Of a DNA stretch of 64,000 nt, positions 27,376 through 38,614 are shown piece after piece. A program made the position numbers and the translations under genes. The notes beneath the pieces were generated by a model. That model made no database searches, was not told where the DNA came from, and saw nothing but the letters and a program-made list of their open reading frames with translations. Position 1 is the first letter of the stretch, and each line of letters opens with the position of its first letter. Origin of the DNA: Cryptosporangium aurantiacum (GTDB lineage: Bacteria; Actinomycetota; Actinomycetes; Mycobacteriales; Cryptosporangiaceae); contig NZ_FRCS01000008.1 of assembly GCF_900143005.1 (NCBI RefSeq), positions 1 through 64,000 of the forward strand, in the 5' to 3' direction.

Positions 27376-28323
27376 TTATCGCGGCCGGGCAGCGGCTCGC
27401 AGCGCGCGGTAGAGCAGCTTGGGGTCACCGAGGCGACGACGGAGTGCGCGCTCCAGCCCGGCGATCGGGAACAGGTTCTGGGGTGCCCGGGAGTCCTTGA
27501 ACTCCACCGACGCGTACCGGCAGAGCGTCTCCTGGCTCAGGTTCGCGAGCGCGACCGCGTCGGCCGCGGTCATCTCGGCCGCGCACTCCACCCGGACGAC
27601 GCCCGCCCACGGAGCGCCGGCCGCGCCCGGTAGCCGCAGGTACCAGGCGTACCGGTGCCAGGAGGTGCCCATCCGGAACACCGGTGACCGGTGCGCCGCC
27701 TCCAGCCGCGCCACCACGCCGTTGAGCTGGGCCGGCAGGTATTCCGCGCGGTGGGTCTTGATGAAACCGATCGCCCGGGGCAGGTGCTGCCGCCCCCGCA
27801 ACGGTCCGTCGACCACCAGCAGGTCGGCGCCGGTCGCGGCCTCGCTGAGCCCGTCGCGCGCCCGGCGGGCGGCTTCCACCTCGACGTCCGCGAGCTGGTT
27901 CTGGACGCCGAGGCTCAACGCGTCCGCGTCGTCCCGCCGCACCTTGTGCAGCGCGTAAACACCCGCAGCGGTGGTGACCTCCGTTGCCTCGTCGGCCGCC
28001 GTGAACACTCCGCGGCGTACTTGGACGGTCGGCACCGTCGCGCCGGAAGCGGTGCAGCAGACGACACCGGCGGCGTAGGAGGCACAAATCGCCAGCGAGG
28101 CCGTCGGCCCGTTGTGCACCCAGAGCTGGGCATCGATGCGCCGGACGCCGTCGACGAACAGCACCGCGGAGGGCGCTTCCACCGGGCTCGGCTCGATCGG
28201 CTTCCAGTCGGCAGGGTCCCGCTCGACGTCGAGGTCGACCCGGGCGCTCGACTTGGTCCGAGACGCGTCGTCCTCGGTGCTGGTGCCGTAACCGGGGTCC
28301 CAGGCGTCGACGGAGAACCTCAT
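27376..28323 (-). CDS. NurA-like 5'-3' nuclease
   Basis: 315 residues. Two NurA-type acidic motifs are visible: AVLFVDGVRR (D58 in VDG) and DLLVVDGPLRG (D172), followed by AIGFIKTHRAEYL and a late MGTSWHRYAWYLRLPG. NurA is a manganese-dependent nuclease that works with the HerA translocase and Mre11-Rad50 in resecting DNA breaks in archaea. Its stop side faces the small-gene operon; its ATG overlap with SbcC (ATGA, 28320-28323) ties it to the SbcCD genes. A HerA-like gene lies at 34139-35932. Homology to NurA is by motif and context; similarity is weak. Confidence 0.72.
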   Translation of the reverse strand: MRFSVDAWDPGYGTSTEDDASRTKSSARVDLDVERDPADWKPIEPSPVEAPSAVLFVDGVRRIDAQLWVHNGPTASLAICASYAAGVVCCTASGATVPTVQVRRGVFTAADEATEVTTAAGVYALHKVRRDDADALSLGVQNQLADVEVEAARRARDGLSEAATGADLLVVDGPLRGRQHLPRAIGFIKTHRAEYLPAQLNGVVARLEAAHRSPVFRMGTSWHRYAWYLRLPGAAGAPWAGVVRVECAAEMTAADAVALANLSQETLCRYASVEFKDSRAPQNLFPIAGLERALRRRLGDPKLLYRALRAAARPR

Positions 28324-31300
28324 TGCATCACCTTCGTCACCACGGACGTGCGCTGATCGCGGCTGACCTCGAACCGTACCGGCACCCGCTCGGCGAGCGC
28401 GGCGACGTGCGTGACCAGCCCCACCATCCGGTCGCCACCGGCCGCCAAGTTCTCCAGCGTCGCGGCGACCACCTCCAGCGTCGCCTCGTCGAGCGTGCCG
28501 AAGCCCTCGTCGAGGAAGATCGCGTCGAGCCGGGCGGCTCCGGACGCCGCCATTGTCGAGAGGTGGGCCGAGAGCGCGAGCGCCAGCGCCAGGCTCGCCT
28601 GGAAGGTCTCGCCACCGGAGAGCGTCTTGACCGGCCGCCTGCTGTCGGCGTCGGCGTGGTCGACGATGACGAACTCACCGGCCTCGTGGGTGAGCGCGAA
28701 CTGACCGCCGGACAGCTCGTTCAGCGTCGCGGACGCCTCGGCCACCAGCAGGTCGAGCGCGGACGCCACCAGCCAGCGCGGGAACGCGTCGGACCGGAGC
28801 AGCTGGCCGAGCTGCCGGGCCACGTGTTGAGCCTCGTCCGCCGCTTTCCGCCGCTCGGCCAGCTCGGCAGCTTCCCGGCGCCGTTCGGCGAGGCGCCGCT
28901 CGGCGGCGCGGGCCTCGGCGAGGGTCGTGGCGAGCGCGGGCGCGGCGGTCTCGGCCAGCGGTCTGTCGGGCGGAACCGGCACCGCGAGCGCGTCGAGCGA
29001 CTCGGCGAGGTCGTGTTCCCGGCCGGCGAGAAGCCGGTCGGCGGCGTGGACCGCCTCGTCGGCGGCGGCGAGCTGCTCGGTGCGGGTGGCCGCCGCCGCG
29101 ACTGCCCACTCGGCGAACGCCCGCCAGCCACCCACCGGGTCGTCGGAGGGGATCGCCGGAGCGCCGAGCGACACGAGCGGCTCGCGGACCGCGGTCAGCC
29201 CGCGGACCGTCGTCGCGACCTCCTCGTACGCGGCCTTCTCGGCGCGCTGCGCGGCGGTCAGCGCGTTCCGAGCGGCCCGCAGCTGCTGGTCGGCGTCGCG
29301 GGCGGCCCGCTCGAGCGCGTCGAGCTCGGCCAGCGTCGCGGCGAGCGCGGCGGCGTCCGGCGCGTCGCCCAGCTGGGCGGTGAGCGTCTGCGCGGTGCGG
29401 TCGGCGGCGGCCAGCTCGGCGGCGGCACGCTGTTCGGCGCGGGCGGCCTCGGTGTGCGCGCGGCGGGCGGCGGTGAGCCGCTCCCCGGCGACCGTCAGCG
29501 CGTGTTCGGCCTCGGCCTGACGCTCGTCGGCTGCCTCGGCGCTCTTTTCCGCGTCGGTGAGCTGGCTTCTGCGCTCCTCCGCCGCGGACGCCGCCCAGCC
29601 GGCCAGCGCCGCCCAGCCGGCCGCGACGTCCTCGACCAGGCCGGCCGGTGCGCCGAGCGGAGCCAGCGCGTCACGAGCCTCGCGGAGTGCGGAGCGAACG
29701 CCGCTCGCCTCGGCGTCGACCTTGGCGGCGTCGCGGTCGGCGTCCGCGCGGGCGGCCCTGGCGGCCATGAGCGCGGCGTCGGCGGCGCGGGCGGCGGCGT
29801 CGAGCGCGTCCCGGGCCGTGAGCCACCGGTCGATCTCCTCGAGCCCCAGAAGGTCGCCGCTGTTGCCCGCGGCCGCGGCGGCCGGCGCTCGGTCGCCGCC
29901 GTCGCGGGCCTCCGCGAGGTCGCCGTCGGCGGCGGGGGCCGCCGCGCGGCTGCGGCGGGTCGGCGGGCGCTTGCCGCGTGACGCCGCGGGGCCGCGGCGG
30001 ACGGTCTCGTGGAGGGCCGGGTCGGCGAGCACCGTCTGGAGACGGTCGATCGCCTCGTCCGCAGTGGCCAGCGCGGCCTCGGCGGACCGAAGCACGTCCG
30101 TGGACGCGCTCCGGCCGGCCACCGCCGCGTCGGCGGCGCGCTGGGCTTCGGTGACGCGCCGGTCGGCGTCGGCCGCGCCGTGCTGGTCGTCGAGCGGCGG
30201 CGGCAGCGTCGCCACCGACTGCGCACAGACCGGGCAAGGCTCCCCCGCCACCAGGTGCGGACGCAGCACCGCCGCGGTGCGGGTGCGCGCCTCGGCGTCG
30301 CGCTCCGACCGGGCCTGCTCCAGCGCGTCCTGCGCCCGGCGGACGTCCCGCTCGGCGTCGTCCAGCGCTGCCGCCGCGGCCGTCCGGCGTTCGACCAGCG
30401 CCGGGCGGCCGCCCGCTACCGCGTCCAGCTCGACCCGCGCGCGCCGCGCCGACTCCACCGGTCCCCGCGGCGGAGCAGCCGCCACCGCCGCGCGAGCCGC
30501 CGAGTCCGCGGCCTCCGCCTCGGCCAGCACCGACCCGGCACGCGCCGCCGCCTCCCGCGCCGACCGCAGCCGCGAGTCCAGCTCCCCCACCGCCGCCGGT
30601 ACCGTCACCGACTCCAACCGGGCCCGCTCCGCCCGCAGACGCACCACCGCACTCCCGGCAGCGTCGGCCGCGGACACCGCCTCGAGCTGCGCGGTGCGCG
30701 CCTGCTCCACGACCTGCTCGGCGGCGACCACCCTGGCCTCGGCGTTGCTCAGCGCCTCGGCCGCCTCCGCCTGGCGCTCCACCAGCGCGGGCCGCCCCTC
30801 CACCAGCGCGTCCAGCTCCGCCCGGGCGCGCCGCGCGTGCTCCAGCGGGCCGCGCTCCGGGGCCGCCGCCACCGCTGCCCGCGCCGCCGAATCCGCGGTC
30901 TCCGCGTCCGCCAGCGCTTCACCGACCTTCGCCGCCACCCCGCGCGCCGACCGGAGCGCGGCGTCGAGCTCACCCAGGCTCGCCGGGACCTCCACCGCGG
31001 CCAGCCGCTCCCGTTCGGCGGACAGGCGGGCCACGGTCTCCCGGGCGGTGCGGGCCTGCTGAGCGGCCGCGGCCAGCTCCGGGAGTGCGGTGGCCACCTG
31101 CGCTTCGGCGTCGACCAGCGCGGCGACCCGCGCCTCGGCCGCGGCCAGTGCGTCATCGGTGGCGTCGTCGTACCGGCCGAGCTGTTCGGCGAGCAGTTCG
31201 GCGTTCTGCCGCTCGCGGGCGGCCTCGGTGTTCGCGGCCCTCGCGATCTGGTCGTAGACCTCCAGCCCGAGAAGCTTGACCAGGATCTTCTGCCGGTCAC

Positions 31301-31799
31301 CCGCCCGGGCGTGCAGGAACTCGGCGAAGTCGCCCTGCGGCAGCACGACACACGTGCAGAAGTGCTCGAACGTCAGGCCGAGGAGACGCTCGACGGCCGG
31401 GGTGACTTCCTTGTCGGCGGCGACCAGGTCGGTGTCGTCCTCCAGGTCGCCGAGCGCGGCCGGGTCGGCCAGCCGCTCCAGCCGGACGTTCTTCACGGTG
31501 ACCGAGCCGGACGCCGCCCGCCGCAACTCCCGGACGACGACGTACCGCTCCGGCCCGACGTCGAACAGCAGCCGGACCGTGCCGCGCGTCGCGGTCGGCG
31601 CCAGCGCCAGCGCGACCTTCCGCTTGTCGTCCCAGCGCGGGACGCTGCCGAACAGCGCGAACGTGATCGCGTCGATGACCGTGGACTTGCCCGCGCCGGT
31701 GGGACCGACCAGCGCGAAGTAGTCGGCCTCGGCGAAGTCGACGGTGGTCGGCTCGCGGAACGAACCGAACCCGGCCATGTCCAGGAGTACCGGTCGCAT
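28320..31799 (-). CDS. sbcC: SbcC / Rad50-like SMC-family ATPase
   Basis: 1159 residues. N-terminal Walker A GPTGAGKST (~32-40) with Q-loop PQGDFAEFLHARAG (~154-168); coiled-coil arms to a zinc hook CPVC (522-525); C-terminal signature LSGGETFQASLALALALSAHL (~1060-1080) and Walker B LDAIFLDEGFGTLDE. With SbcD it forms the nuclease complex that opens DNA hairpins and processes double-strand ends. Both arms carry internal duplications (see findings). Alanine-rich, with an unstructured ARG/PRO stretch at ~605-650. Start ATG 31799. Stop overlaps the NurA-like start by 4 bp. Confidence 0.93.
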   Translation of the reverse strand: MRPVLLDMAGFGSFREPTTVDFAEADYFALVGPTGAGKSTVIDAITFALFGSVPRWDDKRKVALALAPTATRGTVRLLFDVGPERYVVVRELRRAASGSVTVKNVRLERLADPAALGDLEDDTDLVAADKEVTPAVERLLGLTFEHFCTCVVLPQGDFAEFLHARAGDRQKILVKLLGLEVYDQIARAANTEAARERQNAELLAEQLGRYDDATDDALAAAEARVAALVDAEAQVATALPELAAAAQQARTARETVARLSAERERLAAVEVPASLGELDAALRSARGVAAKVGEALADAETADSAARAAVAAAPERGPLEHARRARAELDALVEGRPALVERQAEAAEALSNAEARVVAAEQVVEQARTAQLEAVSAADAAGSAVVRLRAERARLESVTVPAAVGELDSRLRSAREAAARAGSVLAEAEAADSAARAAVAAAPPRGPVESARRARVELDAVAGGRPALVERRTAAAAALDDAERDVRRAQDALEQARSERDAEARTRTAAVLRPHLVAGEPCPVCAQSVATLPPPLDDQHGAADADRRVTEAQRAADAAVAGRSASTDVLRSAEAALATADEAIDRLQTVLADPALHETVRRGPAASRGKRPPTRRSRAAAPAADGDLAEARDGGDRAPAAAAAGNSGDLLGLEEIDRWLTARDALDAAARAADAALMAARAARADADRDAAKVDAEASGVRSALREARDALAPLGAPAGLVEDVAAGWAALAGWAASAAEERRSQLTDAEKSAEAADERQAEAEHALTVAGERLTAARRAHTEAARAEQRAAAELAAADRTAQTLTAQLGDAPDAAALAATLAELDALERAARDADQQLRAARNALTAAQRAEKAAYEEVATTVRGLTAVREPLVSLGAPAIPSDDPVGGWRAFAEWAVAAAATRTEQLAAADEAVHAADRLLAGREHDLAESLDALAVPVPPDRPLAETAAPALATTLAEARAAERRLAERRREAAELAERRKAADEAQHVARQLGQLLRSDAFPRWLVASALDLLVAEASATLNELSGGQFALTHEAGEFVIVDHADADSRRPVKTLSGGETFQASLALALALSAHLSTMAASGAARLDAIFLDEGFGTLDEATLEVVAATLENLAAGGDRMVGLVTHVAALAERVPVRFEVSRDQRTSVVTKVMQ

Positions 31800-31809
31800 G
31801 TCGTCCCCC

Positions 31810-32985
31810 TTAGTGCGCCGGCGCGTCGGTGGTCGTCGTCACGTCGTCGTGCAACCGGCCGAACAGCGCCTGGACCCGGTCGTCGACGACCGCGCGCTCG
31901 GCGCAGAACTCGGCGAACAGCTCCGCCGGTCCGTTCTTTCCCTGGGTCCGATCCGGCCGGGCTATCTGCAGCGGGGCCGCGAACTCCGGGTCGATCCGCA
32001 CCTCCAGCGCGCCGGGAAGCACCGCCTGGACCTCCTCCCGCAGACCGGCGCGAGCCGGTTCGCGGATGATCACCCGCAGGTAGGCGTCCGCGTACTCGGC
32101 AGCGTGTTCGCCCAGCTCGGCGACCGTGCCGGAGATCGTGCGAAGCCTGCGCGCGCTGGTCAGCGGCAGGTCGGTGACCCGGGCCGGAGTGGACGGTGTG
32201 GCCTCGACCAGGCAGACCGTCGGCGTGTTGTCCTGCTCACCGAAGTCGACCGCCAGCGGAGCGCCGGAGTAGACCACCGGGCAGGCCGCGGGCAGCGTCT
32301 GCCGCCGGTGCAGGTGGCCGAGCGCGACGTAGTGGGCGTCGGCGGGAAACGCACCGGCGGGCACGTGGTACTCGAAGATCGACTGGGCGGCCCGTTCACC
32401 GCCGCCCAGCGCGCCGCCGGTGACCGTGAGGTGTGCGGTGACGAGGTTGACCGCGTCGTCCGCGAACCCTGCGGTGAGCGTCGTGAGCAGGTCACGGATC
32501 AGCTGGTCGTAACCCGCGCTGTTCTCGGCGGGTGTGTTCGCGACGAGTTCCGCGGCGCGGATCGCGTGCCGCTGGGACAGGAACGGCAGCACCGCGACCC
32601 GGACCGGCTCCCCGGTGTGCGGCGCGGTGAACGTGACGACACCCCCGCTCTCGGCGGTGCGGACGCTGCCCACCATCGTGATGCCCGCGACGTTCATCAG
32701 CGGCCGGTAGGCGTCGAACGTCCGCGGGTGGTCGTGGTTGCCTGCGATCGCGACGACCTCGGCGCCGGTGTCGCGCAGCGCCATCAACGCCCGGACGACG
32801 AGTTCCTGCGCCTCGGCCGAGGGAGCCGCCGAGTCGTAGAGGTCACCGGCGACCAACACCGCGTCGACCTGGTGTGTTCGCGCGAGAGTGACGATCTCGC
32901 GGAGCACCGCACGCTGCTCGTCGAGGCGGTTACGGCCCTTGAGGACCTTGCCCACATGCCAGTCGGAGGTGTGCAGGAACTTCAC
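31810..32985 (-). CDS. sbcD: SbcD / Mre11-like nuclease
   Basis: 391 residues. Metallophosphoesterase signature VKFLHTSDWHVGK (D8, H10), DAVLVAGDLYDS (~43-54), and VAIAGNHDHPRTF (~79-91), then HLTVTGG and YVALGHLHRRQ, all for two-metal catalysis. A C-terminal capping domain follows. Works with the SbcC protein encoded 10 bp downstream. Start GTG 32985 gives a standard SbcD N-terminus; a longer frame to 33267 crosses the hairpin repeat and the neighbour gene and is rejected. Confidence 0.93.
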   Translation of the reverse strand: MKFLHTSDWHVGKVLKGRNRLDEQRAVLREIVTLARTHQVDAVLVAGDLYDSAAPSAEAQELVVRALMALRDTGAEVVAIAGNHDHPRTFDAYRPLMNVAGITMVGSVRTAESGGVVTFTAPHTGEPVRVAVLPFLSQRHAIRAAELVANTPAENSAGYDQLIRDLLTTLTAGFADDAVNLVTAHLTVTGGALGGGERAAQSIFEYHVPAGAFPADAHYVALGHLHRRQTLPAACPVVYSGAPLAVDFGEQDNTPTVCLVEATPSTPARVTDLPLTSARRLRTISGTVAELGEHAAEYADAYLRVIIREPARAGLREEVQAVLPGALEVRIDPEFAAPLQIARPDRTQGKNGPAELFAEFCAERAVVDDRVQALFGRLHDDVTTTTDAPAH

Positions 32986-33037
32986 GGCACAGAACGCTAG
33001 CTCACTCCTGCGACAGAACGTGCCCACCGCGTCCGGG

Positions 33038-33081
33038 GCGGACCCCTTCCGGCGCGTCATAGCTAGCCCGAACGGGTCCAC
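33038..33081. repeat. 44-bp palindromic repeat, copy 1 (inverted to copy 2)
   Basis: Arms GCGGACCCCTT and AACGGGTCCAC (9 of 11 pairs) around 22 bases containing the palindrome GCTAGC. Identical at 39 of 44 positions to the reverse complement of 34088-34131, with 28 contiguous identical bases at 33052-33079. It spans the stop codon of the AbiEi-like gene. Confidence 0.9.
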
Positions 33082-34007
33082 TCCAACGGCCCGAGCGGAC
33101 AGCCAGGCCCGCACGCGGTTGGTGCGCCGGTCCAGCCACGAGCGCGGAGGATGGCTGCGACCTCGGCGGCTATCGCGCACGGACGCCACCGGACGTCCTG
33201 CCAGCCGTATCGAAGGGTCGTTTCTCCGCGACGCGCGGCGGCGTTGTCCCGGATCATGTCCCGCCATGCCGCGGGAACACGCTGATGCACGACCCGCCCG
33301 TCGAGCTCGATCGTCGTCCGGTACTCATCGAGGTGGACATCCTGCCGCGTACCACCCACGGGACGCTGCCGTGTGCCGGACGGAAGGCCGTGGGCCCGTT
33401 CGACGTCAACGAGGTAGTGCCACTCCAACGCCGAATGGGCGCCCCCGCTGACGTCGTCCAGCACCGCGAGGAACTCCGCGCGGCGAGGCATCGTCGGATA
33501 GCCGAGAGCCAGTTCCCGCACCTCCTCCAGAACCGAGTGGTACTGCTGAGCCACCCGGCCGAGCACGGCCGCCACGCCCGCCGGATCCGTAGCCTCCACA
33601 CAGACATCGATGGCCGTCCGCGCGACCCCGGTACACGGCGGCGAACCGACCGGCACCACCTGGATCCGGGTGCGATGGACGACCAGGCCACGCCTCGATC
33701 GCACGTTCCGGGGCCGGGGGATCGTCAGGTGGATCACCGGCTCGCCCCGGTCGGGCAGCAGACGCCAGATCGCCCCGGCAGTCGTATGGCTCAGCACGGC
33801 ACCAGTACCCGCGTGCAGAAGCGCGACCCAGTACCTGGTCAGCACCGGCAACGGCCCGGTGAAAGTGACATAGATACCAGGGATCGGGCACCGCCACCGC
33901 CCGGCGGCGAGATGCGCGGCGATGTCACCGCGGCTGAAGCCACGCCCGATCAGCTGACCACGCGACACCGCGCCCTGCTGGCGCCGGAGCAGCTCCTCCC
34001 AGGCCAT
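33063..34007 (-). CDS. AbiEi-antitoxin/DUF559-like protein in a hairpin-bounded cassette
   Basis: 314 residues. N-terminal winged-helix region (ELLRRQQGAVSRGQLIGRGFSRGDIAAHLAAGRW) as in AbiEi-type proteins, a middle region with LSHTTAGAIW and VHRTRI, and a C-terminal part like DUF559 (ELDGRVVHQ; TTLRYGWQDV), a Vsr/PD-(D/E)XK relative. Such fusion proteins are common single genes in actinobacteria; no AbiEii toxin gene is next to it. Likely DNA-related, activity unknown. Start ATG 34007 has GGACGAG upstream. Its stop codon lies inside hairpin copy 1, and copy 2 is 81 bp before its start. It separates sbcD from the HerA-like gene. Confidence 0.75.
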   Translation of the reverse strand: MAWEELLRRQQGAVSRGQLIGRGFSRGDIAAHLAAGRWRCPIPGIYVTFTGPLPVLTRYWVALLHAGTGAVLSHTTAGAIWRLLPDRGEPVIHLTIPRPRNVRSRRGLVVHRTRIQVVPVGSPPCTGVARTAIDVCVEATDPAGVAAVLGRVAQQYHSVLEEVRELALGYPTMPRRAEFLAVLDDVSGGAHSALEWHYLVDVERAHGLPSGTRQRPVGGTRQDVHLDEYRTTIELDGRVVHQRVPAAWRDMIRDNAAARRGETTLRYGWQDVRWRPCAIAAEVAAILRARGWTGAPTACGPGCPLGPLEWTRSG

Positions 34008-34087
34008 CGGCTCGTCCACCCGACCACCGTGCCCGCACCCGCCCGCCGCACGGGGGCCCGCGAGTGATCTGTGGATCACCGCCGGAA

Positions 34088-34131
34088 GCGGACCCGTTCG
34101 GGCTAGCTATGACGCGCGCAAACGGGTCCGC
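34088..34131. repeat. 44-bp palindromic repeat, copy 2 (inverted to copy 1)
   Basis: Perfect 11-bp arms GCGGACCCGTT and AACGGGTCCGC around 22 bases with GCTAGC. Reverse-oriented relative to copy 1, so the two copies bound about 1.1 kb holding one gene. Each can form a stable hairpin. Either boundaries of a small mobile unit or members of a genome-wide hairpin family. No target-site duplication was found at the outer edges. Confidence 0.9.
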
Positions 34132-34138
34132 TCCCCCG

Positions 34139-35932
34139 TCAGAACGGCGCGTCGTCGGCGGGGGCGGCGGGCAGCCGCTTGAAGGGGTCGCGACCAGTGA
34201 TCTCGCCGGTCACCGGGTTCACCGTGGTCGGCGGCGTCCCCGCCGGGGTATCCCCGGCCTCGCTGCGCCTCGTGGCCCACGCCGGGAACGGGAACTCGAC
34301 CGCGAGCGGCACCGGGATCTCCGGCTGCGCGACGAACATCGTGCCGGGCTTCGCCAGCGTGACCCGCTGCCGCTGGCCCGGCGGCAGGAACCCGTACTCG
34401 GGCCGCCCCGCCTCCGCCGGATCGAGCCGCCCCACGACCTTGATCGAGCTGTTCGAGATGATCCGCCGCTCGACCTCGCTGGCGGTCTGCTGCGCCCCGA
34501 TCAGGATGATGCCCAGCGAGCGGCCCCGCTCGGCGATGTCGAGCAGCACCTCCTTGATGGGGCTGGACCCCTCCCGCGGCGCGTACTTGTTCAACTCGTC
34601 GAGCATCGTGAACAGCAGCCCGCCGGCCCCGGCCTCCTCCTTGCGGGCGGTCTCCGCGGCCAGCACGACACCGACCACGAACCGCTGCGCCCGCTCCGGC
34701 AGATTGTGCAGGTCAACCACGGTCAGCTGCTGGTTCTCCGTCGACACTCGGCGGGTCGGCGTCTCCGGCAGGTCACCGCGGATGAGCGGCCGCAACGCCC
34801 GCAACGAGGACCGCAGCCGGCGCAGGAACGCGTTCACGGTGCCGGCACCGGTCACCGGACCGGCCCAGGCCGAGCGGGTGTCGTCGTCGGCGAGTTTGTC
34901 GGCGATCAGATCGACGAGCTGGTCGTAGGTGCGCACCGGGCGGCCGTCGATCGTGACCGCACCGTCGGTGCCCGCCGGGACGGCGTCCATCCGCAGACGG
35001 GCGGCGACCTGGTGGATCACCATCGTGTACTGGTTGCGCTCGTCCTCCGCGTCCGCGAAGACGAACGGCAGCAGCTCGCTGCGGCAGAACTCGGCGATCG
35101 TCCACCAGAACGCGTGGACGCCGGTCGCCCGCTCCCGGACGTCGGGCCGCCCGGTCGTGTCGCCGGGCAGCGGCGGCGCGTAGAACCCGGTGGAGGCGAA
35201 CGGCTCGGCGGGCAGCCCCATGATCGCGTACTGCGCCCGGAGTGATTCGTCCAGCTTGGTGTTCGTATGGTCGAGGAACAACAGGTCCTCGCCCTTGACG
35301 CTGAAGATCAGCGCCTTGGTGTTCACCGTCCGGCGCCCCAGCACACCCGACCGGAACAGGCCGTAGAGCAGGAACAACGCGAAGCTCGTTTTGGTCGCGA
35401 CGCCGGAGACGCCGGAGATCGACACGTGCGCGCCCCGGGTGCCGTCGAGAAAGTCGAGGTTGACGTAGATCGGCGTCCCGTCGCGGCCGAGGCCGACCGG
35501 CACCTTCCGGTCCATCCGGTCGAAGTAGAGCGCGATCGCCCGCTCCTCGCCGGTGGCGCGACGCACCGGCTCGCCGGGGCGCGGCGGCACGTACACCTCG
35601 GGCTCGACCCGGGTGGTGGCGATCTCCGCCACCTCCTGCACCTGCGCCGGGAGGACGCCGTCGGCGATCAGGAACACGTCCGAGCTGAACTGCGCGCCCT
35701 CGTGCCGCGCGGTGACCTGGGTGACGACGCCCGCGGTGAGCACCGGGCCCAGCCCCGGCACGTCGCGGACGGTGACCACCACGTCGTCGAGCTGCAGATA
35801 CGCGTCGTCCCGGAGCGCCACATGGAACTGCAGCGGGGTGGCGTCTTCGGTGCCCAGCACCCGGCCTACCCACGGGAGGACGGCAGGCTCCACGGCGCCC
35901 CCTTCGGCGAGCCAGCTCGGCGCGGCCGTCAT
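34139..35932 (-). CDS. HerA-like DNA-translocating ATPase
   Basis: 597 residues. Order of features fits HerA/FtsK-type: an N-terminal HAS-barrel-like domain (~20-110), nucleotide-binding loop SGVSGVATKTS (~172-183), Walker B LLFTMLDELNKYAP, and a C-terminal IGAQQTASEVERRI and VVGRLD arginine-finger region. The nucleotide loop lacks the usual G-K pair spacing (TKTS), a variant seen here and perhaps general in actinobacterial members. HerA is a hexameric pump that works with NurA. Separated from sbcD, sbcC and the NurA-like gene only by the cassette. Start ATG 35932; the longer frame to 36049 is not supported. Confidence 0.82.
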   Translation of the reverse strand: MTAAPSWLAEGGAVEPAVLPWVGRVLGTEDATPLQFHVALRDDAYLQLDDVVVTVRDVPGLGPVLTAGVVTQVTARHEGAQFSSDVFLIADGVLPAQVQEVAEIATTRVEPEVYVPPRPGEPVRRATGEERAIALYFDRMDRKVPVGLGRDGTPIYVNLDFLDGTRGAHVSISGVSGVATKTSFALFLLYGLFRSGVLGRRTVNTKALIFSVKGEDLLFLDHTNTKLDESLRAQYAIMGLPAEPFASTGFYAPPLPGDTTGRPDVRERATGVHAFWWTIAEFCRSELLPFVFADAEDERNQYTMVIHQVAARLRMDAVPAGTDGAVTIDGRPVRTYDQLVDLIADKLADDDTRSAWAGPVTGAGTVNAFLRRLRSSLRALRPLIRGDLPETPTRRVSTENQQLTVVDLHNLPERAQRFVVGVVLAAETARKEEAGAGGLLFTMLDELNKYAPREGSSPIKEVLLDIAERGRSLGIILIGAQQTASEVERRIISNSSIKVVGRLDPAEAGRPEYGFLPPGQRQRVTLAKPGTMFVAQPEIPVPLAVEFPFPAWATRRSEAGDTPAGTPPTTVNPVTGEITGRDPFKRLPAAPADDAPF

Positions 35933-36002
35933 CGTTGCGTCCCGGTCAGAATCAGGTGCCCCATGACCACCGGACGCTACCCCACCCGTCGGACAATCCC
36001 GT

Positions 36003-38417
36003 CTACGCGGAGAGCGCCGGCTGCGGAGCCGCGGTACCCGCCGCGGCACCCGCCGCGGACAGCGCCTGCGGAGCCGCCGGGGCGAGCGCGGCGAGCAACA
36101 GATCGGCCAGCTCCGCGGCGGGTAGCGGCCGCGCGAACAAGTAGCCCTGTCCCTTCCGGTAGCCCAGCTCGTGCAGGCGCGCCGCCTGCGCGGCGTCCTC
36201 CACGCCCTCCGCGACCGTGTCCAGCTCCAGGCCGCGCGCGACCTGGCAGAGGAACTCGACGATCACCGCGCGGTCGCCGGGCTCGGTGACGCCGTCCACG
36301 AACGACTTGTCCACCTTCAGGATGTCGACCGGGCAGGTCAGCAGCAGCCCCAGCGACGAGTGGCCGGTGCCGAAGTCGTCCAGCGCGACCCGGACGCCGA
36401 GCGCCCGCAGCGCGTGCAGCGCCTCGACCGCCCGCCCGCCGCCGAACACCGCGGTCTCGGTCACCTCGACGACCAGGTACTCCGCGGGCAGCCCCGAGTC
36501 GGCGAGCGCCGCGGCCACGTCGTCGACGAAGTCCGGCTCGTCCAGCTGACGGGGCGACACGTTGACGCAGACCCGCGACGGCGCGGCGCCGCCGTACACG
36601 GCCGACCACGCAGCAGCCTGCCCGCAGGCCTCGCGCAACACCCAGCGGCCGAGCGGGACGATCAGCCCGCTGCGCTCGGCGACCGGGATGAAGCGGTCCG
36701 GCGGGATCAGCCCCCGCTCCGGGTCGTGCCAGCGGACGAGCGCCTCCACCCCGGCGATCCGCTGCTCGGGCAGCGTGACGATCGGCTGGTAGACGACCCG
36801 GAAGTCGCCGCGGCCCAGACCGTCGCGCAGGCCGGCGGCCAGGCGGGCCGCCTCGACCGCGGACGCGTCCATCGCCGGGACGAAACGCGCCCAGCCACCG
36901 GCGCCGGTCTTCGCCGCGTACATCGCGACGTCGGCCCGACGGATCAGCTCGTTGGAGTCGGCGGCCACCCATCCGTCGGCCAGCCCGACGCTGGCCCGGA
37001 TCCGCAGCTCGTGACCGTCGATCCGGAGCGGCTCCGCGAGCGCGGCGAGGATCTGCCCGACCCGGGCCGCCGGCCGCTCCGGGTCGGTACGCACACCACG
37101 GAACAGCACCGCGAACTCGTCCCCGCCGAGCCGGGCAACGGTGTCACCCTCCCCGACGGCCTCCCGGATCCGCGCCGCCGCAGCGACCAGCAACTGATCG
37201 CCGACGATGTGCCCGAGCCGGTCGTTGACCGACTTGAAGTCGTCCAGGTCGATCAGCGCCATCGCCACGTCGTCGGCAGCGGCCGGGGACGTCAACGCGG
37301 CATCGATCCGCTCGGCCAGCAGAACGCGGTTGGCCAGCCCGGTCAGCCCGTCGTGGCTCGCCTGGAACGTCAACCGATTCTCCGACGTCCGCAGTTCCGC
37401 GACGGTCTGGTCGAGCTGGTCGACCAGCCGGCCGTTCTCCCGGAAGCTCACCAGCTGCCGGGCCGCCACCAGCGCGGTCACCAGCACCGCACCGAGGATG
37501 ACCGGCTGCTCGTCGCGGTGGCCCTGGACGGTGTGCAGCAGCAGGACGTCGGTGAGCGCGATCGCGACGTATGGCAGCAGGTACAGCCATCGGAACCGCC
37601 CCGGACGCGGTTCGGCCGCCACCGGCGACGCGTCCAGCGCGGCCAGCGCCGCCCGCCGCTGCCGCTCCACCGCCGCGGTGAGGAAGAGATAGGCCAGCGG
37701 GAACGACAGCAGCGACGAGTTGACGTACGGCCGGACCGCGAAAAGCGGCGTGAGCCCCGCCGTGCTCGCCGAGGTGAGCGCGGCGAGCGCGAGGAGTTGC
37801 AGCGCACCGGCGTCGACCTGCCGGACGCCGGCGAACGAGATCTTCAGCAACGCCAGGACGCCGAGGAAACCCGCCGCGACGGTCCCCACCAGCGGGAGCG
37901 TCGAGCCGGTCGCCGCCACGAAGCCGCCGGCCGACCGCAGCGCGAAGTACCAGGTGAACAGCGCGCTCCCGGCCAGCACCGTGCCCGCGTCCAGCGCGAA
38001 CGTCACCCACGCGGTCCGCGTCATCCGGTTGACCGGCACCATCAGCAGCGCGACCAGGATCAAGCCCAACCCGGCCAGGAAGCACGACGTCGTCCGCAGG
38101 GTCATCACCTGGCTGGGACCGCCCGGATGCCCGACCGCGTCGACGAGCTGGCTCACCGCACCGACCGCGATCAGGCCGACCGCGGCGGCGATCATCCGCC
38201 AGAACCGGCGGGACGCGTCCGGGAGCGGCGTCGCGACCACCAGCCGGCCGGTTGCCACCACCCCGATCAGCACGACGGCGAGCGGCGGGATCCAGCCGAC
38301 GATCGGCGGCGCGATCGGACCGTTCCAGGCGAGCACCAGGTAACCGAAGCTGAGCAACGCGCACAGCAACGCCGCCCGGGTCAGCCGCCCCGGCTGCTCG
38401 GTGAGACGTACACGCAT
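36003..38417 (-). CDS. membrane GGDEF-EAL c-di-GMP protein
   Basis: 804 residues. About ten membrane segments in the first ~330 residues, then a GGDEF domain (~350-515) with intact GGDEF at 431-435, then an EAL domain (~525-785) with EALVRW (EAL at 558-560), NVSPRQL, EVTETAVF, LDDFGTG, DKSFV and AEGVED. Both catalytic sites look complete, so it could make or break c-di-GMP at the membrane. Start ATG 38417 (candidates further upstream exist). Divergent from narK. No sensor domain other than the membrane part. Confidence 0.92.
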   Translation of the reverse strand: MRVRLTEQPGRLTRAALLCALLSFGYLVLAWNGPIAPPIVGWIPPLAVVLIGVVATGRLVVATPLPDASRRFWRMIAAAVGLIAVGAVSQLVDAVGHPGGPSQVMTLRTTSCFLAGLGLILVALLMVPVNRMTRTAWVTFALDAGTVLAGSALFTWYFALRSAGGFVAATGSTLPLVGTVAAGFLGVLALLKISFAGVRQVDAGALQLLALAALTSASTAGLTPLFAVRPYVNSSLLSFPLAYLFLTAAVERQRRAALAALDASPVAAEPRPGRFRWLYLLPYVAIALTDVLLLHTVQGHRDEQPVILGAVLVTALVAARQLVSFRENGRLVDQLDQTVAELRTSENRLTFQASHDGLTGLANRVLLAERIDAALTSPAAADDVAMALIDLDDFKSVNDRLGHIVGDQLLVAAAARIREAVGEGDTVARLGGDEFAVLFRGVRTDPERPAARVGQILAALAEPLRIDGHELRIRASVGLADGWVAADSNELIRRADVAMYAAKTGAGGWARFVPAMDASAVEAARLAAGLRDGLGRGDFRVVYQPIVTLPEQRIAGVEALVRWHDPERGLIPPDRFIPVAERSGLIVPLGRWVLREACGQAAAWSAVYGGAAPSRVCVNVSPRQLDEPDFVDDVAAALADSGLPAEYLVVEVTETAVFGGGRAVEALHALRALGVRVALDDFGTGHSSLGLLLTCPVDILKVDKSFVDGVTEPGDRAVIVEFLCQVARGLELDTVAEGVEDAAQAARLHELGYRKGQGYLFARPLPAAELADLLLAALAPAAPQALSAAGAAAGTAAPQPALSA

Positions 38418-38614
38418 GGTCACGGCGTTCCATCGGCGCCGCCGTGCCGACTCGCGAGCCTTCCCCCACGAATCAACCGTTCTGCACCGACGGCCGCCCC
38501 TAACCGTCGCCGATTCGCCGCGTGCGGGAGATGTTGCGCAGGCGACGCGGTCATCCAACCGAAGGGAAACAGCGAATTTTTAGCGTCGGGCAACGCCGGA
38601 CGAGAGGGAACCCG

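Follow-up and report, generated by a model that had tools for sequence, protein, structure and literature searches.

The genes herA, mre11, rad50 and nurA are clustered in Sulfolobus, where they are co-transcribed in S. acidocaldarius (PMC2288612) and constitute one operon with each gene essential in S. islandicus (PMC4351679). Bacteria have HerA-NurA pairs of their own, which share less than 20% identity with the archaeal ones (PMC9960219). In Deinococcus radiodurans, HerA was demonstrated to be a hexamer and to form a complex with NurA that resects 5' tails in an ATP-dependent manner, HerA driving translocation and NurA cutting the 5' tail, an activity described as weak in vitro (PMC9960219). 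The same paper calls the biological function of the bacterial pair controversial, since removing the genes from the hosts studied affected damage phenotypes modestly or in the reverse direction. A bacterial precedent for linkage with the Mre11-like SbcD and the Rad50-like SbcC is found in Oceanithermus profundus, where sbcD and sbcC lie downstream of hepA, the gene for HerA (PMC5448004). Here we analyze a stretch of 64,000 nt from Cryptosporangium aurantiacum (NZ_FRCS01000008.1, positions 1-64,000; hereafter the window), in which a reading made from the sequence alone had proposed a NurA-SbcC-SbcD-HerA set on one strand. This was confirmed: nurA and herA flank sbcC and sbcD, and all four genes lie on the minus strand within 27376-35932, at the places proposed.

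34139..35932, minus strand: herA, HerA-type DNA-pumping ATPase of the bacterial type, predicted hexamer (phmmer match to D. radiodurans HerA; kept residues)
31810..32988, minus strand, probable start at 32988, reading frame open from 33267: sbcD, Mre11-like nuclease subunit (TIGR00619)
28320..31799, minus strand: sbcC, Rad50-like ATPase with CPVC zinc hook (Pfam SbcC_Walker_B, TIGR00618, hook)
27376..28323, minus strand: nurA, NurA nuclease, RNase H-like (phmmer, AlphaFold model, invariant acidic residues)

Followed from 35932 down to 27376, the order is herA, an unrelated-looking open reading frame (ORF), sbcD, sbcC and nurA, with the nurA start sharing 4 bases with the sbcC stop. The proposal hung on the two outer genes resembling HerA and NurA, and both of them do. 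Residues 21-562 of the HerA protein match D. radiodurans HerA (7f6d_B) at 8.2e-141 (phmmer, PDB), and the Walker A, Walker B, catalytic acid and trans-acting arginine named for the latter (PMC9960219) are all present: K181/T182, D216, D445/E446 and R471 align with K175/T176, D220, D487/E488 and R513, and they are invariant in 81 of 81 loci (the window plus the 80 relatives described below). By analogy with the Deinococcus protein, a hexamer and translocation are predicted for the HerA of the window. NurA residues 23-310 match D. radiodurans NurA (7f6d_H) at 1.2e-19 (phmmer, PDB), and the AlphaFold model (predicted local distance difference test 88.8) gives Z scores of 22.7 with T. maritima NurA, 22.4 with D. 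radiodurans NurA and 14.6 with S. solfataricus NurA, which places 27376-28323, as modelled, in the RNase H-like NurA fold. In a profile search, which the sequence-only reading had suggested as a check, the Pfam family NurA (PF09376) stayed under its gathering score (15.9 vs. 21 bits). A gathering score is a curated score and not a defining property of a family; the fold and the match to solved NurA structures decide the identity. Residues D58, E148 and D172, presumably catalytic, are invariant in 62 of 62 NurA sequences and aligned with acidic residues of D. radiodurans NurA.

The middle pair has the parts that define SbcCD, namely an SbcD phosphoesterase and an SbcC ATPase with a zinc hook. 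SbcC has Rad50-type ends, a Pfam SbcC_Walker_B match of 41.3 bits (cut-off 27), a CPVC hook at residue 521 (0-based) and a match to TIGR00618 at 3.8e-73 that, with 246.9 bits, remains under the curated cut-off of 478.5. A frameshift in sbcC was suspected from an odd stretch and was rejected, as the sequence to either side of an insertion stays in frame when aligned with a genus mate. SbcD matches TIGR00619 with 182.6 bits (cut-off 77.65), the homology beginning only at residue 96 of the long ORF 31810-33267, and its start is therefore probably the GTG at 32988.

The likeness to the Sulfolobus operon lies in the clustering of the same four functions, and to that extent the claim that the archaeal operon is reproduced here stands. 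In other respects it does not: an ORF (33063-34079) intervenes, the pair SbcD and SbcC stands in for Mre11 and Rad50, a motif upstream points to the regulator PafBC, the resection complex AdnAB is encoded as well, and the solved proteins closest to HerA and NurA, with the HerA catalytic residues kept, are those of D. radiodurans. The best archaeal HerA model reached E 0.15 against the HerA of the window, so that archaeal-type HerA and NurA were not found; judged by sequence, both are of the bacterial (Deinococcus) type. Given this type and the SbcD/SbcC pair, the locus is the counterpart, in a bacterium, of the operon known from archaea.

Searching one genome per species gave 142 HerA relatives; 80 of them were analyzed, and all 80 bear actinobacterial names. 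The order herA-sbcD-sbcC-nurA is complete in 61 of the 80, and for 18 of the other 19 the available stretch ends before nurA could appear; a chance arrangement is excluded because of this recurrence. The four proteins have diverged in parallel (r 0.81-0.90 over 29 loci, with 0 of 500 permutations as high). A conserved fifth partner was also considered and rejected, as the best flanking ORF family occurs in 8 of 81 loci (heuristic ORF set).

The same association is seen from the side of gene content. Among 394 genomes sampled from the class, HerA was counted at E < 1e-170, leaving out of the family 17 weaker matches (best E 1e-9 to 1e-3), and is present in 21; NurA is encoded in all 21 and in two more. 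The linked SbcD belongs to a subfamily of its own, being 49-72% identical to that of the window in 20 of the 20 other HerA-positive genomes, while other SbcDs are at most 41% identical among the matches listed, apart from fragments in one genome (G331). An SbcD match at 1e-3, in some cases weak, occurs in 266 of the 394 genomes. An ordinary SbcD is retained beside the linked one in 11 of the 21 HerA-positive genomes; the genome of the window lacks it, and a member of the same family without HerA has one. In a tree of SbcD the linked copies of Actinomycetota are separate from eight ordinary SbcDs, and two distant plasmid copies have long branches and an unreliable placement.

Beyond the class, HerA was detected at 1e-30 in 68 of 296 genomes of a phylum sample, 66 of these 68 lying outside the class. 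All four genes are present in 18 of 20 such loci examined, seven in the order of the window and 11 as nurA-herA-sbcD-sbcC; of the remaining two, one shows only herA and the other is truncated where its contig ends. The four-gene linkage is thus a recurrent unit in Actinomycetota, and the expectation that the four genes are usually apart or partly missing in bacteria fails in this phylum where HerA is present, both in the 80 relatives and in these loci of other classes. The unit also occurs on plasmids. A scan of 72,556 plasmid records gave six matches, one of which, at 11.85 Mb, looks like a chromosome; the five others carry all four genes (SbcC identities taken from annotation), in the order of the window in Streptomyces and with NurA first in Sphaerospermopsis, Nostoc, Aulosira and Chlorohelix, the Nostoc set spanning the start of its record. 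Carriage by phages was considered and rejected, as a scan of viral contigs found no close relative; two phage records carry distant relatives at about 26%, one of them annotated with NurA- and HerA-type genes.

Three further features of the window bear on how the genes are expressed.

35974..35996, minus strand: candidate PafBC/P1-type promoter motif of herA, TTGTCCGAC-N8-TAGCGT, differing from the published consensus at 3 positions
33063..34079, minus strand: ORF of unrecognized family between sbcD and herA, 338 codons, outside the conserved unit
32994..33016, minus strand: candidate PafBC/P1-type promoter motif of sbcD, CTGTCGCAG-N8-TAGCGT, 3 mismatches

The published consensus for LexA-independent damage promoters is tTGTCRgtg-8nt-TannnT (PMC5656591). 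With up to two mismatches it precedes herA in 27 of 81 loci, compared with 12 of 583 flanking-ORF starts (Fisher 4e-18). Kinship among loci inflates this enrichment, and a set of 37 representatives (17 with the motif, permuted motifs reaching up to 16) had been selected manually once the motif had been inspected; the test was therefore repeated with the first locus of each genus. It gave 13 of 31 vs. 1 of 210 control starts (Fisher 2.5e-12), while 500 permuted motifs averaged 0.39 and never exceeded 8; random per-genus draws had the motif in 10.4 loci on average and in no fewer than 9. The count varies with orientation (27 sense, 4 antisense), with spacing (27 loci with a spacer of 8, 0-2 with spacers of 4-7 and 9-12) and with position, 0 of 62 nurA and 1 of 77 sbcC upstream regions having it, and 0 of 8 ordinary sbcD genes. 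Of the 23 loci in which sbcD lies more than 200 bp from herA, eight have a motif in front of sbcD itself, as against 1 of the 57 others (Fisher 1.2e-4); all eight are from Pseudonocardia, and at up to three mismatches the numbers are 12 of 23 and 1 of 57. Control by LexA as part of the SOS response was rejected, since an SOS box at up to three mismatches shows no enrichment upstream of herA (24 of 81 loci vs. 75 of 243 controls).

In the window itself the core YTGTC-N12-TANNNT, chosen after the window copies had been seen, matches exactly twice in the 64 kb, upstream of herA and of sbcD (0.18 expected; 2 of 100 shuffles as high), and direct comparison shows it kept at both sites in two genus mates (G394 and G395). 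These copies fit the full consensus only with three mismatches allowed; the window has 33 sites at that level, and therefore the case for PafBC promoters in this strain alone is suggestive. Because both herA and sbcD are preceded by a promoter-like motif, herA is probably a transcription unit of its own here, and the ORF and second motif lying between the two genes bear on whether all four are co-transcribed. The genome has genes for both PafB and PafC. It also has three genes of the Pup-ligase family (C13 and C30, L157-L159), two of which look like copies of what we take to be PafA.

The ORF at 33063-34079 has no Pfam family at 1e-3 and no NCBIfam family at 0.01, and a tblastn search at 1e-4 recovered it from none of the 80 relative loci. 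The idea that the DNA inserted between herA and sbcD contributes to the function of the set was rejected, as the contents vary from locus to locus. The herA-sbcD distance is 200 bp or less in 53 of 56 loci outside Pseudonocardia vs. 4 of 23 inside this genus, where the gap holds differing genes and reaches up to 8.3 kb; it is as if the operon tolerated insertions at this point once sbcD has a promoter of its own. In a genus mate (L128, 3357-4038) the gap contains a 32-bp tandem repeat in 21 copies. Directly upstream of herA in the window, on the same strand, lies a gene for a GGDEF-EAL protein (36003-38558).

AdnAB is the mycobacterial resection complex, with end resection as its presumed task, and has a helicase-nuclease architecture different from that of the NurA-HerA set. 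The suggestion that the host already owns a system of this type proved right: its genome encodes AdnA- and AdnB-like proteins matching PDB entries at 2e-174 and 8e-240, entries that we take to be M. smegmatis AdnAB. Of 44 chosen genomes, 43 have an AdnB-like match, among them every one of the 21 that are HerA-positive. A replacement of AdnAB by NurA-HerA is thereby rejected, and the set would be a second route and not a substitute.

We consider it likely that the set is a damage-induced end-resection machine of the bacterial type working beside AdnAB, a resection role being plausible. Damage would leave single-stranded DNA and activate PafBC, and PafBC-directed RNA polymerase would transcribe herA and sbcDC-nurA; SbcC-SbcD would then bind blocked ends and clean or nick them, the HerA hexamer would thread the duplex into a NurA dimer that degrades the 5' strand, and the 3' tail would be passed to RecA. 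As the operon carries its own SbcCD, the simplest model is archaeal-like, with SbcCD preparing the end and HerA-NurA resecting it. We infer that the set is induced in vivo, that SbcCD hands ends over to NurA-HerA and that repair benefits on balance. Single-stranded DNA activates PafBC (PMC11804915), and it is also the product of resection. This allows a broader proposal, which is possible, if on balance somewhat doubtful: that Actinomycetota hold the full bacterial counterpart of the archaeal Mre11-Rad50-HerA-NurA machine as one inherited unit with its own SbcCD subfamily and occasional spread by plasmids, wired to PafBC so that the single-stranded DNA made by resection would boost expression, and serving as an inducible second route beside AdnAB.

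A number of observations weigh against a conserved, damage-induced resection unit. HerA is rare and patchy in the class, and the linkage has exceptions: at L016 herA stands alone with no sbcD within the next 10 kb, only herA was found at L129 (genus mate G396, within 14 kb) and at L138, NurA occurs without HerA in G311 and as a fragment only in G284, and in G331, where HerA gave no hit, there are fragments of a linked-type SbcD. The motif at up to two mismatches is absent from 54 of 81 herA upstream regions and from the plasmid copy L120, and outside the class it precedes the first gene in 2 of 15 cases; at three mismatches it also occurs at 44 of 583 control starts, and the 33 sites in the window compare with 19 expected. 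The AdnB-like protein in 21 of 21 HerA-positive genomes means that nothing is being replaced. Finally, D. radiodurans or T. thermophilus strains lacking NurA or HerA had a damage resistance that was modestly affected or improved, and resection in vitro was very weak (PMC9960219).

The last of these points is the ground for a different reading, in which NurA-HerA restrains recombination by trimming or destroying ends, so that double-strand break repair is attenuated or stalled forks are cleared. This was proposed for D. radiodurans, where the deletion strains tolerated mitomycin C and ultraviolet light better and the authors suggest attenuation (PMC9960219), and coexistence with AdnAB leaves room for such a modulator. 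We regard it as unlikely here, since the damage-type promoter and the constant linkage with SbcCD point to a contributing role in the response to damage, all four genes are individually essential in S. islandicus (PMC4351679), and reduced recombination or transformation has been reported as well, with about tenfold loss of intermolecular recombination in D. radiodurans mutants and about tenfold loss of transformation in a T. thermophilus hepA mutant (PMC5448004). That SbcCD merely does its usual hairpin job, with NurA and HerA as incidental neighbors, would agree with SbcD usually occurring without HerA in the class (266 genomes with a match against 21 with HerA). It is very improbable given the conserved order and matched divergence, the retention of an ordinary SbcD in 11 HerA-positive genomes, and a linked SbcD subfamily that among the matches listed is seen only with HerA and NurA, the fragments in G331 excepted.

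A role in degrading invading phage or plasmid DNA, or in plasmid competition, would also make use of SbcCD and NurA-HerA, which would attack free or abnormal ends much as HerA-nuclease defence complexes do. We take TdpAB to be such an anti-phage complex of a HerA-like and a NurA-like protein, with to our knowledge no SbcCD partner; the NurA-like fold is common to both systems, the NurA model matching the TdpAB subunit with Z 14.2 and 14.0, weaker than its matches to bacterial NurAs. The five plasmid copies and the patchy distribution of HerA fit this idea; one of these copies adjoins a Wadjet type II system, and another has TIR and kinase genes nearby. The plasmids number only five among 72,556 records, however, and no close relative turned up in the viral-contig scan; the NurA of the window had no PADLOC family match and its HerA matched weakly, chromosomal flanks hold no widely recurring family (they were not scanned for defence families), and the promoter motif is of the damage type. 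A defence function thus appears improbable for the set in the window.

Some side observations concern the plasmid copies and the SbcCD proteins. On the plasmid of Streptomyces sp. BB1-1-1 (L120, 980-9382) the unit is accompanied by Wadjet type II JetA2, JetB2 and JetD2 (PADLOC) and a TIGR02680 protein, presumably JetC, and an ImmA/IrrE-type gene lies between the Wadjet genes and the unit; another gene of this type immediately precedes the copy in Chlorohelix. In Aulosira, whose plasmid is 40 kb long, sbcC is followed by a weakly matching tRNA-guanine transglycosylase/DpdA-like gene (L123, 15708-16769). The linked SbcC falls into two length classes among 62 four-gene sets, of about 970-1190 and about 800-920 residues, and the coiled coil therefore differs; the short class is found in Streptosporangiaceae, Micromonosporaceae and one Acidimicrobiia bin. 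The ordinary SbcDs of seven genomes (G100, G111, G132, G198, G242, G324 and G347) give alignments split into two parts around residues 135-147, and seem to bear an insertion.

No title in the open-licence literature was found to deal with such an operon in Actinobacteria, mycobacteria or Streptomyces, or with PafBC together with NurA, and both the spread of the operon in Actinomycetota and its promoter seem unreported there. The published precedent came from one genus of Thermales and was read as recruitment (PMC5448004); the present results widen it to a phylum-wide unit in two gene orders. The sampled genomes offer new hosts for deletion tests, 11 of 21 having two types of SbcCD and 21 of 21 an AdnB-like protein. 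A conserved operon that ties NurA-HerA to an SbcCD of its own and to a damage-type promoter indicates when this machine should matter, and with which partners.

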